Assembly: GCA_913009765.1 (NCBI GenBank)
Contig: CAJVYT010000306.1
Coordinates: 1-5,413 of the forward strand
Length of the DNA stretch: 5,413 bases
Reading direction: 5' to 3'
From: an uncultured candidate division Zixibacteria bacterium
GTDB taxonomy: Bacteria; Zixibacteria; MSB-5A5; GN15; FEB-12
A program made the translations under genes and the position numbers. Shown one piece after another: positions 1-5,251 of this stretch (position 1 is the first letter of the stretch; each line of letters starts with the position of its first letter). A model generated the notes under the pieces. The model made no database searches, had not been told where the DNA came from, and worked only from the letters and a program-made list of their open reading frames with translations.

Positions 1-58
1 AGACGGCATACGAGATATATCAGTGTGACTGGAGTTCAGACGTGTGCTCTTCCGATCT
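1..58 (+). other. Illumina P7/TruSeq indexed adapter remnant (not genomic)
   Basis: Bases 1-16 are the 3' part of the Illumina P7 flow-cell sequence (AGACGGCATACGAGAT). Bases 17-24 are an 8-nt index slot, ATATCAGT, whose reverse complement ACTGATAT agrees with my recollection of TruSeq index 25. Bases 25-58 are the TruSeq read-2 primer, starting GTGACTGGAGTTC and ending GCTCTTCCGATCT. The match runs without a break to base 58, so the true insert begins at 59. These bases should be trimmed. No gene start or regulatory site should be read from them. Confidence 0.98.
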
Positions 59-430
59 GGCATGATTGCAGTACATGATAGTCAAACGGTTATGCTGTAT
101 AATTATGAGTTTCCTCTTTTAGGACTACCCGATATAGAAGCTGAGAACAATGATGTTATTTTCTTAAATCAAAACTATCCCAACCCGTTTAACTTGGAAA
201 CTGTAATATGTTATTCATTACCGCAAAAAACAAAAGTGCAGATTTCAGTGTATAATATTATTGGTCAAAAAATAAATACGCTGATACAAGCTGTACAGGA
301 GGCAGGAAATCATACAGTGAGATGGAATGGAAAAAGTGTCAGCGGAAATATTGTCGCAAGTGGAATTTATTTATATAAGTTAGAAACTGACGATAAAACA
401 GAAACAAAGAAAATGATTCTGCTCAAATAA
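59..430 (+). CDS. C-terminal fragment of a secreted protein with T9SS type A sorting domain (5' partial)
   Basis: This is the last 123 codons of a longer gene whose beginning lies off the contig. The adapter happens to be open in the same frame and offers a false GTG start at base 44, which should be ignored. The ATG at 62 is probably just an internal methionine. From about fragment residue 34 the protein has the classic sorting-domain layout: LNQNYPNPFN (about residues 36-45), a strand with an alternating hydrophobic pattern (VQISVYNIIGQKI), a turn ending in the HTVRWNG block, then SGIYLYKLET and a basic tail ending KKMILLK. In known systems this Ig-like domain directs proteins with a Sec signal peptide through the type IX secretion system to the cell surface or medium, and it is usually removed there. 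The function of the cargo cannot be told, because only about 33 residues before the domain are present. The gene ends in TAA directly against the stop of the opposing gene. FlgD-type Ig domains look similar, so T9SS use is inferred from the motif. Confidence 0.88.
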   Translation, partial: GMIAVHDSQTVMLYNYEFPLLGLPDIEAENNDVIFLNQNYPNPFNLETVICYSLPQKTKVQISVYNIIGQKINTLIQAVQEAGNHTVRWNGKSVSGNIVASGIYLYKLETDDKTETKKMILLK

Positions 431-1896: not shown

Positions 1897-3867
1897 ATGA
1901 GTGATATGTTTGATGCGGTACAAAATTTTCATGTGACGAAAAAGAAAGTTGAATACATCGATTTCAAATCGGCGACAAATGAAGATTATGCCAAAATTGG
2001 TTTTAAATGCGGGCTTGAAATTCATCAGCAATTAAAAACTGAAAAAAAATTGTTCTGCCGATGCCCTGCTTCAGTTTACAATGATATAGATGAATATGAT
2101 GCTGAGGTTATTCGTCATATGCGTCCGACCTTAAGTGAACTGGGTGAATATGACGGTACTGCTCTCATGGAATTCCGCACACGAAAAAATATTACCTACC
2201 GTTTAAAAAATGAAACGACTTGTACGTATGAAATTGATGATACACCGCCGTTTCATATCAATAACGATGCCTTAAAAATCGCAATCCAAATTTCACTTTT
2301 GGCTAAACAATCTGTCGTTGGTGAATTACATATTATGCGTAAACAATATCTTGATGGTTCAATTCCTGCCGGATTTCAAAGAACCGGTATTATTGGTATT
2401 GAGGGGGAGATACCTTTAAAAAATAAAACTATCCGATTAATCCAACTTTCTATTGAAGAAGATTCTGCCCGCGAAATTTCTGATATCGGACATGAAAGAG
2501 TCTACCGTACCGACCGTTTGGGCATGCCTTTGATAGAAACAGTTACATATCCTGAAATGCTGACTCCAACAGAAGCTGCCGAAGCGTGCCAGTATTTACG
2601 TTTCCTTGTTCGCTCTACCGGTAATGTCTATACAGGTATCGGAGCTGCTCGCCAAGATGTAAATGTCTCTGCCGAGGGTGGCACTCGTGTTGAAATAAAG
2701 GGTGTGGCTCATATCAAATGGATTCCCCTATTGACCCATAATGAAGCGTTCCGACAGGTTGCTCTTTTGAAGATCAGAGAAGAACTGCTCAAAAGAATCA
2801 AACCGTCCGATTGGAAAATGAAAGTTGTCGAACTTGATTATGATAGACTCAAATCATCTGCTCACTATATCCTCAAAGCAAAAGATGAAAACAAAAAACT
2901 GATAGCAGTCAACCTTCCGAATTTCAAAGGTATCCTCTCACATTTTACCCAACCCGGGCAAATGTTCTCAAACGAAATTGCCGACCGTCTTAAAGTGATT
3001 GCCTGTCTTGAACGCCCCAACATGCTTTCATCTGAAATGCCGAGACCGGAATTCTTTTTTGCCGATGGTGACTATATTAAGAAAGCTCTTAAAGCTGGTG
3101 AAAATGATGCCCAAATTATTTTCTGGACTGATGAATATGACCGACAAATTGCGACAGAAACTATTGAAGAACGCTGTCGAATGGCATTTGAGGGTGTTCC
3201 TAACGAAACTCGAAAAGGACTGCCCGACGGCACAACCATCTTTGAAAGAGTTCTGCCGGGAGCAGATAGAATGTATCCCGATACCGATACCGCCCCAATT
3301 CAAATCCCCGAGGAATGGATTGAACAAATCAGACAAACTTTACCGCATGATGTCTCCGATGAGATGAAAACTCTCGCAGAGTGGAAAATTCCTGAATCTG
3401 CATGGATATATATTTTACGAAATAATCTTATGATGATGATTCGACGTATAAATTATGAAACCGATGTTCCCTATAATTTTATTGCGAAGCTCTTCTCCTT
3501 TGATTTACATCATCTTGAGGGACAGTATGCACAATCTGATAATTTTACATATTCCAAAGTTTTGGGGATGTTTAGGTTTATCAAAGAAGAAAATTTACAC
3601 TATGAAATCTCCCGTCTCATGTTAGTTGAGTTGTACCAACATCCAAATATGCGGTTTGATTCTATGTTAGAAGAACTCAAATTCAAACGACGCGATAAAG
3701 AAAAATTGAAATCGTATATTCCATTGTTGTCCGAGAAATTTGACCAAATAAACACCTCAAAAGAATCCGATGCAAAATTTCATTGGATTATGGGACAGAT
3801 ACGACACAAAGCAATTGGCAATATTGCTCTTACCAAATTATCAAAGTTTGTAAAGGAGAGCATCTAA
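1897..3867 (+). CDS. gatE: Glu-tRNA(Gln) amidotransferase subunit E (archaeal-type GatE)
   Basis: GatE binds mischarged Glu-tRNA(Gln) in the cytoplasm, phosphorylates the glutamyl gamma-carboxylate with ATP, and amidates it with ammonia supplied by GatD, giving Gln-tRNA(Gln). Counting from the ATG at 1897 (656 aa), the GatB/GatE cradle is complete: KCGLEIHQQL (about 37-46), KLFCRCP (51-57), MRPTLSELGEYDGTAL (75-90), YEIDDTPPF (111-119), KQYLDGSIPAGFQRT (149-163), IEEDSAREISD (186-196), RTDRLGMPLIETVTYPEM (204-221) and GIGAARQDVNVS (247-258). The stretch from about 344 to 464, closing with PGADRMYPDTDTAP, fits the AspRS-like GAD insertion found in GatE but absent from GatB. A helical region and a YqeY-like tail (IMGQIRHKAIGN, about 631-642) follow. 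About 35 residues precede the motif where archaeal GatE normally begins. The gene is intact and lies 1 nt ahead of gatD. Ordinary GatB is excluded by the GAD-type insertion and the gatD partner. Confidence 0.95.
   Translation: MSDMFDAVQNFHVTKKKVEYIDFKSATNEDYAKIGFKCGLEIHQQLKTEKKLFCRCPASVYNDIDEYDAEVIRHMRPTLSELGEYDGTALMEFRTRKNITYRLKNETTCTYEIDDTPPFHINNDALKIAIQISLLAKQSVVGELHIMRKQYLDGSIPAGFQRTGIIGIEGEIPLKNKTIRLIQLSIEEDSAREISDIGHERVYRTDRLGMPLIETVTYPEMLTPTEAAEACQYLRFLVRSTGNVYTGIGAARQDVNVSAEGGTRVEIKGVAHIKWIPLLTHNEAFRQVALLKIREELLKRIKPSDWKMKVVELDYDRLKSSAHYILKAKDENKKLIAVNLPNFKGILSHFTQPGQMFSNEIADRLKVIACLERPNMLSSEMPRPEFFFADGDYIKKALKAGENDAQIIFWTDEYDRQIATETIEERCRMAFEGVPNETRKGLPDGTTIFERVLPGADRMYPDTDTAPIQIPEEWIEQIRQTLPHDVSDEMKTLAEWKIPESAWIYILRNNLMMMIRRINYETDVPYNFIAKLFSFDLHHLEGQYAQSDNFTYSKVLGMFRFIKEENLHYEISRLMLVELYQHPNMRFDSMLEELKFKRRDKEKLKSYIPLLSEKFDQINTSKESDAKFHWIMGQIRHKAIGNIALTKLSKFVKESI
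3852..3858 (+). promoter_or_regulatory. Ribosome binding site of gatD, inside the gatE 3' end
   Basis: AAAGGAG lies within the last codons of gatE and ends 10 bases before the gatD ATG at 3869. With a 1-nt gap between the gatE stop and the gatD start, this fits co-transcription and coupled translation of the two subunits. Confidence 0.8.
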
Positions 3868-3868
3868 A

Positions 3869-5251
3869 ATGGCTGATTTATTTAAAGGATACAAAGGAAA
3901 AGCTCTCGAAATTCTCAAATCATACAAAATAAGAGTTTGGAGCGATGCCACAGTGCAGACTACTCGTGGTGAATTTAAGGGGATTGTGCTGCCTCGTTCA
4001 GAAAATGATGATGATTTACATATTGTTCTTAAAATGATTACCGGATACAATGTTGGCATCTCAGTCGATACCATTACCGATATGAAAGAAGATGGGTATA
4101 AAGAAGCACACTACAAAATTCCTGAAAAAGAATTCCCATATTCAGAAGAAAAACCAAATGTCAAACTGTTCGGTACCGGCGGTACAATTGCCTCTCGCTT
4201 AGATTACCGTACCGGAGCAGTTATTCCGGCATTCTCTCCGGGGGAACTCTATGGTGCTGTTCCTGAACTTGCTGATATTTGTAATATGACTACCGAAAAA
4301 CTATTTGCAGTATTTTCTGAAAATATGGGTCCGAAACAATATATAACCCTTGCCAAATCTATCGGCAAAGAGATTGAAAAAGGTATCGACGGTATAGTCG
4401 TCGGGCATGGTACCGATACAATGCATCACACTGCAGCAGCCCTTTCGTTTATGGTGCAGGATTCACCGGTTCCGATTGTGATGGTCGGCTCTCAGCGGTC
4501 ATCAGACAGACCGTCATCCGATGCTGCCCTTAACCTTATCCACGCCACCAAAGCAGCCGCCGAGTCCGACATCGCCGAAGTGATGGTGTGTATGTTTGGT
4601 CCAACCTCTGATGAGTACGGACTGCTTCATTCAGGTGTACGAGTTCGCAAAATGCACTCATCCTATCGATCGACTTTTAGAACTATCGGCGACACGCCAA
4701 TAGCTATGATAAGCAAAGATAACATCACTCACATAAAGGATAACTTTAAGTGCCGACGTAAAGATAGGGATGTGAAAATCTATCCGTACTTTGAGGAAAA
4801 AGTTGCCATCGTGTATTATTATCCTAATATGCAGCCTGATATTATCGACTCGCTTATAGACAACGGGTACAAAGGTATTGTCATTGCAGGAACAGGTTTG
4901 GGGCATGTCAATAAATTAATTTATCCTGCTATTGAACGGGCGACAGCTAAAGGTGTTGCTATTTATATGACTGTTCAAACACTGTGGGGATATGTCCACA
5001 TGTTTGTATATGATACCGGGCGCGACCTTATGGCGATGGGGATTATTCCGGCTGAAAACATGCTGCCGGAGGTTGCCTATATCAAACTTGGATGGGCATT
5101 GGGGCAGACTGATAATTTGGAAAAAGTCAAAGAGATTATGCTGAATCCGATTGCTGATGAAATTACCGAACGTGAACCATATAACGGCTATCTGATTTTC
5201 CAAGGCGGCATTCCCGAAATGGAAGCGTATCTCAAGCGAATACATAAATAA
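3869..5251 (+). CDS. gatD: Glu-tRNA(Gln) amidotransferase subunit D (archaeal-type GatD, asparaginase-like)
   Basis: GatD is the ammonia-producing subunit of GatDE. It hydrolyses an amide donor in an L-asparaginase-type active site and passes ammonia to GatE. The 460-aa product starts with a small beta-barrel domain typical of GatD (about residues 20-72, RVWSDATVQTTRGEFKGIVL through DDLHIVLK and GYNVGI), which plain type I/II asparaginases lack. The asparaginase fold follows. GTGGTIASR (102-110) carries the first catalytic Thr at 103. VVGHGTDTMHHTAAAL (177-192) carries the Thr182-Asp183 pair. GVRVRKMHSS (256-265) carries the catalytic Lys261. SQRSSDRPSSDAALNL (208-223) is also characteristic. 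The C-terminal part, with AGTGLGHVN (340-348) and AENMLPEVAYIKLGWALGQT (395-414), matches GatD closely. All catalytic residues expected from the family are present and the length is normal to slightly long. Its position 1 nt after gatE confirms the role. Free asparaginase is the alternative, and is unlikely. Confidence 0.96.
   Translation: MADLFKGYKGKALEILKSYKIRVWSDATVQTTRGEFKGIVLPRSENDDDLHIVLKMITGYNVGISVDTITDMKEDGYKEAHYKIPEKEFPYSEEKPNVKLFGTGGTIASRLDYRTGAVIPAFSPGELYGAVPELADICNMTTEKLFAVFSENMGPKQYITLAKSIGKEIEKGIDGIVVGHGTDTMHHTAAALSFMVQDSPVPIVMVGSQRSSDRPSSDAALNLIHATKAAAESDIAEVMVCMFGPTSDEYGLLHSGVRVRKMHSSYRSTFRTIGDTPIAMISKDNITHIKDNFKCRRKDRDVKIYPYFEEKVAIVYYYPNMQPDIIDSLIDNGYKGIVIAGTGLGHVNKLIYPAIERATAKGVAIYMTVQTLWGYVHMFVYDTGRDLMAMGIIPAENMLPEVAYIKLGWALGQTDNLEKVKEIMLNPIADEITEREPYNGYLIFQGGIPEMEAYLKRIHK

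Follow-up and report, generated by a model that had tools for sequence, protein, structure and literature searches.

The window, a 5,413-nucleotide stretch of DNA (contig CAJVYT010000306.1) from an uncultured candidate division Zixibacteria bacterium, carries on its forward strand an intact gatE (1897-3867) and an intact gatD (3869-5251), one base apart. The contig is bacterial and close to Zixiibacteriota, and the pair belongs to a GatDE subfamily, here called type B, that is found together with glutaminyl-tRNA synthetase (GlnRS) both in bacteria and in certain archaea. Why should a Glu-tRNA(Gln) amidotransferase be kept where GlnRS is present? The reading that we favour, with about as much doubt as conviction, is that type-B GatDE may be a working Glu-tRNA(Gln) amidotransferase alongside GlnRS, serving as a repair or second route.

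GatE of the window scores over two equivalog cut-offs (NF003107, 494.9 against 456; TIGR00134, 419.6 against 319.55) and stays below GatB level with model TIGR00133 (135 bits; cut-off 314.8); its AlphaFold2 model matches the archaeal structures 2d6f and 1zq1, with the aspartyl-tRNA synthetase (AspRS)-like insertion and the YqeY-like tail of the GatE fold retained. (A TTG at 1876 is an alternative start.) GatD, the asparaginase-type amidohydrolase subunit, scores 515.8 with TIGR02153 (cut-off 324) and matches PF00710, PF17763 and PF18195. The equivalog matches, the one-base spacing and the bacterial contig bear out the claim, made in an earlier sequence-only reading, of a genuine and intact GatDE pair in a bacterium. 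That reading also took the pair for archaeal GatDE in a bacterial lineage: GatDE it is, but not the characterised archaeal enzyme, for the window falls into the type-B clade in the trees of both subunits.

The GatE tree (110 rows; a quick method, with a midpoint root for drawing only) separates 41 canonical archaeal rows, type A, which include both solved enzymes, from 69 type-B rows, with a Shimodaira-Hasegawa-like approximate likelihood ratio test (SH-aLRT) value of 99. Type B comprises the window, every other bacterial sequence entered and 13 rows from Thermoplasmatota, among which G253 is a long branch; the type-A rows besides the two PDB entries come from a single phylum, so that archaeal sampling is narrow. 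(Some technical notes: the tree is without L022, L033, L043, L046, L047 and L049, six of the 49 loci described below, which the open reading frame (ORF) filter missed; L221 and L222, copies of the L186 gene, were taken out; L183 is the L224 gene, and the 69 type-B rows are thus 68 genes.) A loop of the catalytic domain reads RKQYLDG in all 69 type-B rows and RKxV[IV]DG in all 41 type-A rows; in the GatB/GatE catalytic domain of the window this signature is RKQYLDGSIPAGFQRT (2338-2385, forward strand; residues 155-170 of the ORF read from 1876). At 18 GatE positions, most of them in the catalytic domain, the majority residue (above 85% in each subfamily) differs between types, and 64 columns hold the same residue at above 95% in both. 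In the GatD tree (60 rows; the program warned of long branches at the deeper joins) the 42 GatD rows whose genes adjoin type-B gatE group in a single clade, with support 100/100. Judged by its sequences, the bacterial GatDE is a distinct subfamily and not the characterised archaeal enzyme relocated. Bacterial and archaeal type-B sequences branch in an uncertain order in the GatE tree, so that transfer may have gone either way. Two Thermoplasmatota bins, G197 and G206, hold one GatE of each type, possibly through contamination.

The subfamily is widespread. A scan of genome contigs found 49 gatE loci, mostly in Bacteroidales, Aminicenantes, Cloacimonadota and Zixiibacteriota, the remainder being other Bacteroidota, one Calditrichaeota, two Acidobacteria-labelled records, one WOR-3, one Chrysiogenales, one Desulfuromonas and one Rhodobacteraceae metagenome-assembled genome (MAG) and two Thermoplasmata archaea; the earlier expectation of homologues in Fibrobacteres-Chlorobi-Bacteroidetes-type phyla thus held. 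A protein search returned at least 8000 GatE homologues (120 were listed, without type assignment), and NCBI already names several of the matches listed as GatE. The suggestion that the pair comes from a known but little-studied clade is accordingly right as to bacterial relatives, some of them already named; the pair is not rare. The presence of GatDE in bacteria is not new by itself: it is abundant in databases and partly named. Two reviews (PMC9499178 and PMC8762117, in the parts available) nevertheless state that GatDE is exclusively archaeal, and a literature search of titles and abstract openings, with subscription journals mostly outside it, gave no report of bacterial GatDE or of archaeal GlnRS among the matches listed.

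The company that GatDE keeps is the more informative finding. (Counts of genes in genomes refer, here and below, to matches over the model cut-off.) The sequence-only reading had recommended a search of the source genome for gatCAB, glnS and asnS; run in the carrier relatives, it found GlnRS in 38 of the 49 carriers, asparaginyl-tRNA synthetase (AsnRS) in 44 and GatA in one, G046, a contaminated-looking bin. Weaker GatA matches in 24 other carriers (at most 231 bits; cut-off 481) are taken for other amidases. The nearest relatives of the window, G001-G004, all have GlnRS, and none has GatA. As the Gln-tRNA route of its lineage, which is what the earlier reading proposed, GatDE is for the most part not needed. 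That an archaeal GatDE was transferred to bacteria to serve as this route in a lineage devoid of GlnRS and GatCAB would fit the scarcity of GatA; we hold it very improbable in view of the GlnRS genes just described, the position of the bacterial copies outside the canonical archaeal clade, and the carriers in which a single contig bears both GatE and GlnRS.

The association is seen within the phylum of G001, Zixiibacteriota (132 genomes, including G004, which is titled Calditrichaeota), where GatE is found in 69 genomes, GlnRS in 92 and GatA in 57. GlnRS accompanies GatE in 62 of 69 genomes and is present in 30 of the 63 without GatE (Fisher p 1.3e-7, or 1.2e-4 when the comparison is restricted to genomes that have GlnRS or GatA; 74 of 81 against 24 of 51 when fragments are counted), these statistics ignoring shared ancestry and MAG completeness being uncertain, a first point that tells against our interpretation. 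In the same phylum GatE and GatA are not associated (p 0.60), an argument against incomplete genomes as the whole explanation. The 69 GatE-bearing genomes divide into 24 with GlnRS and GatA, 38 with GlnRS only, four with GatA only and three with neither; GatA thus co-occurs with GatE in 28.

Could the pair be an artefact or a relic, the product of contamination, misassembly or gene decay? G046 might suggest so (its bin, titled Rhodobacteraceae, holds a true gatA besides a fragment of gatE, locus L046, probably through a mis-binned contig). The notion is hardly credible for the subfamily at large, whose frames are open in many MAGs, whose gene order is the same at four MAG loci (L001-L004), and whose GatE shares contigs of up to 3.7 Mb with GlnRS. 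When contigs were compared in 58 of the 62 phylum genomes bearing both genes, nine had GatE and GlnRS on one contig, among them G134 (3.5 Mb) and G161 (3.7 Mb); a single contig rules out binning error in these two, though not misassembly. GatA is found on the G134 contig too, together with a match of the GatE model that is GatB-like.

The same partnership appears in archaea. Among 145 genomes of the Thermoplasmatota phylum, 27 were given to the GlnRS model: GlnRS was found in ten of 13 with type-B GatE and in none of 14 with type A as best GatE (p 3.4e-5), the genomes being hand-picked and not random (type B from G042, G044 and lower-scoring matches, type A mostly top-scoring). The three type-B genomes without GlnRS over cut-off are G042 (1.4 Mb), G044 (1.0 Mb) and G249. 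The ten archaeal GlnRS form one clade (support 100/99) in a tree that lacks G009 and G011 because of a motif filter. Three groupings recur in the GlnRS and GatE trees (G191 with G277; G182 with G194; G206 with G197, G213, G186 and G232), but the two histories agree only partly because archaeal type-B GatE is not one clade. In nine of the ten, glnS has a tRNA-Gln gene no more than about 1.5 kb away (the glnS stretch of G197 has only tRNA-Glu), and this tRNA is of archaeal kind, with A1-U72, or G1-U72 in G253. In G186 and G182 a non-discriminating AspRS and an archaeal lysyl-tRNA synthetase are encoded in the glnS stretch as well, which, with the archaeal-kind tRNAs, makes bacterial contamination unlikely there. 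According to the available part of PMC9499178, GlnRS is lacking from all known archaea. A G73 discriminator base is apparent in tRNA-Gln of three GlnRS-bearing archaea (G191, G277 and G182; rows L255, L256, L282, L294 and L287), unlike most archaeal rows, and is possibly an adaptation to GlnRS; the type-A genome G303 (L275) reads G73 too.

If the reading favoured here is right, GatD would free ammonia from an amide donor, and GatE would activate and then amidate the side chain of a glutamate wrongly carried by tRNA(Gln). GlnRS would supply most Gln-tRNA(Gln), and GatDE would convert residual Glu-tRNA(Gln) made by glutamyl-tRNA synthetase (GluRS) or by GlnRS, either as a repair route or as a parallel second supply. 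We infer the chemistry from the family, and the tRNA substrate and repair role as well. Glu-tRNA(Gln) amidotransferase is the simplest reading because the conserved residues are kept and the informative neighbours belong to tRNA-Gln metabolism; repair or a second route is probable because GlnRS is usually present. The neighbours in question are these: G175 has gltX (identified by motif and alignment), glnS, gatE and gatD inside about 10 kb; the glnS-gatE distance in G176 is as short; in G161 and G162 the distance from gatE to gltX is 1.6 and 2.9 kb, and tRNA-Gln(CUG) comes after gltX; and in G037 the glnS contig has the same number and length as the gatDE contig.

Some of this linkage invites a division of labour in which GatDE would be the main Gln-tRNA(Gln) route or would serve one isoacceptor, GlnRS being minor or serving the other. 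tRNA-Gln(CUG) is close to glnS in seven loci from Bacteroidota and in seven genomes of archaea, and gltX stands beside the same isoacceptor near gatE in G161 and G162. We find this scheme improbable: most GlnRS genes score high and are of full length, tRNA-Gln(UUG) too is a neighbour of glnS, in G191, G253 and G277, and the linkage patterns conflict as to which isoacceptor would go where.

A more serious rival, unlikely on balance but by a lesser degree, is that the substrate of type-B GatDE has changed (to a different misacylated tRNA, to a specialised RNA resembling tRNA-Gln, or to a non-tRNA carboxylate) and that GlnRS alone makes Gln-tRNA(Gln). The 18 subfamily-differing positions, most of them in the catalytic domain, are what one would expect of such a change, as is coexistence with GlnRS, with GatA and, in the two archaeal bins, with a type-A copy. 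An odd tRNA-Gln(UUG)-like gene directly upstream of type-B gatE in G253 (L246, 463-538), with C37 and an A1-A72 mismatch, points the same way; an Rfam search of it gave nothing at gathering score. Against this rival, residues conserved across both subfamilies are retained, and the proximity of gltX, glnS and tRNA-Gln genes in certain genomes points back to tRNA-Gln metabolism.

The bacterial carriers gave 31 distinct tRNA-Gln rows. U1-A72 can be read directly in 27 of them and with a U8-fixed register in three more (L149, L165 and L171); L351 is the single row whose 1-72 pair the script left unassigned. The 15 rows from type-B archaea have A1-U72 (nine directly, four register-corrected) apart from one G1-U72 and the odd G253 gene, and A1-U72 is found in all seven type-A rows; register corrections were made by eye. 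The tyrosine of the type-B loop was considered as a reader of U1-A72 on the model of GatB, in which a tyrosine, we assume, reads pair 1-72 (a text check found no mention of it). This candidate was rejected: type-B archaea with the same loop keep A1-U72, so the subfamily loop does not track the pair. Canonical GatDE is reported to contact A1:U72 and the D-loop (PMC9499178, available in part), so that tRNA recognition by bacterial type B must differ or use other features.

In GluRS, Arg358 (Thermus thermophilus numbering) is Arg in 18 of 20 rows (one gene entered twice), Tyr in one and gapped in one, and is Arg in all 26 rows from the phylum of G001 (three shared with the 20-row set); three of those 26 come from genomes that have GatA but lack GlnRS over cut-off. 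As a discrimination test the residue was dropped, since here it fails to tell the types apart; PMC3927822, as far as its accessible text goes, holds that it is not a general marker of GluRS discrimination. In G001 and G002 (L111 and L112) GluRS is extended at its N-terminus by a stretch that matches the transmembrane family DUF3566 (PF12089; 26.0 and 25.9 against 22.2 bits), which suggests a membrane-anchored enzyme; L114 has an extension of like length, for which a Pfam search gave no match, and L360 (G092) a longer one. A DUF3566-like identity for the small protein beside gltX in G175 was dropped, a Pfam search giving no match.

What else weighs against a GatDE that works alongside GlnRS? 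1) Bacterial carrier tRNA-Gln starts with U1, and canonical GatDE is reported to contact A1:U72. 2) A fully discriminating GluRS would leave little Glu-tRNA(Gln), and the Arg358 check could not decide. 3) Linkage of glnS to gatE is a minority pattern, within 3 kb in two of the 58 genomes compared. 4) No GlnRS over cut-off turned up in 11 of the 49 carriers (G006, G016, G019, G022, G025, G036, G042, G044, G046, G047 and G049) or in seven of the 69 GatE-bearing phylum genomes, four of which have GatA; G124, nearly one contig (2.6 Mb), has GatE and GatA with GlnRS not over cut-off, its GatE match being partial (model positions 5-372 of 622). 5) GlnRS does not require GatDE, since 30 phylum genomes have it without GatE over cut-off. 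6) Five loci of Bacteroidales, in Bacteroidota (L010, L013, L017, L018 and L028), have type-B gatE without adjoining gatD, as do several archaeal and Zixiibacteriota loci.

More tentatively, at a probability somewhat below that of the reading favoured here, one can think of type-B GatDE as the amidotransferase partner of GlnRS in a cross-domain gene set (GlnRS, type-B GatDE, GluRS and tRNA-Gln) that would keep both direct and indirect routes, for repair or for a split between isoacceptors. If this is true, the type-B-bearing Thermoplasmatota would be archaea with GlnRS. PMC9499178, in the part available, presents GatDE as an archaeal hallmark and ties the archaeal lack of GlnRS to co-evolution of tRNA-Gln with GatDE. 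A GatDE subfamily living with GlnRS in bacteria and some archaea runs counter to both, and its carriers would be natural intermediates between indirect and direct formation of Gln-tRNA.

The rest of the window is context. At the contig edge, an ORF at 44-430 (forward strand) has a type IX secretion system (T9SS) type A sorting domain (TIGR04183, 49.2 against cut-off 23; PF18962, 38.7 against 27), as the sequence-only reading had recognised; it lies outside the system. An uncharacterised protein of family 7 follows on the reverse strand (431-1570) and is kept beside gatDE, at the equivalent place, in L001-L004; a Pfam search gave no match, and NF053851, a Bdellovibrio fibre-protein domain, matches below cut-off. 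A search for a conserved gatDE neighbour across L001-L049 found, besides GatD, only families shared within close lineages. A tRNA search of the window found none, and tRNAs in L001-L049 are limited to Leu and Gly (L036) and Met (L038); Rfam gave zero matches at gathering score in the window and 17 loci.

GatE is homologous to GatB, and GatDE and GatCAB both amidate misacylated tRNA; they differ in the ammonia-releasing subunit, which is the asparaginase-type GatD in the one and GatA in the other. With the archaeal GatDE of M. thermautotrophicus (2d6f) and P. abyssi (1zq1), type B shares the two subunits, their folds, the AspRS-like insertion, the YqeY-like tail and the common conserved residues. 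It differs in forming a clade of its own in the trees of both subunits (the GatE of the window lies outside that of the characterised enzymes, SH-aLRT 99); in its loop, RKQYLDG in place of RKxV[IV]DG; in co-occurring with GlnRS, the nearest relatives G001-G004 included; and in the first base of tRNA-Gln, which is U1 in bacterial carriers, including the near relative G002 (L165), and A1 with archaeal GatDE, type-B archaea keeping A1-U72. Bdellovibrio, with GlnRS, AsnRS and GatCAB, likewise retains an amidotransferase despite both direct synthetases, but there a non-discriminating AspRS ties GatCAB to tRNA-dependent Asn synthesis (PMC4206432, as far as its available text goes). That explanation is not directly transferable, because GatDE is described, in the part of PMC9499178 at hand, as a Glu-tRNA(Gln) amidotransferase.

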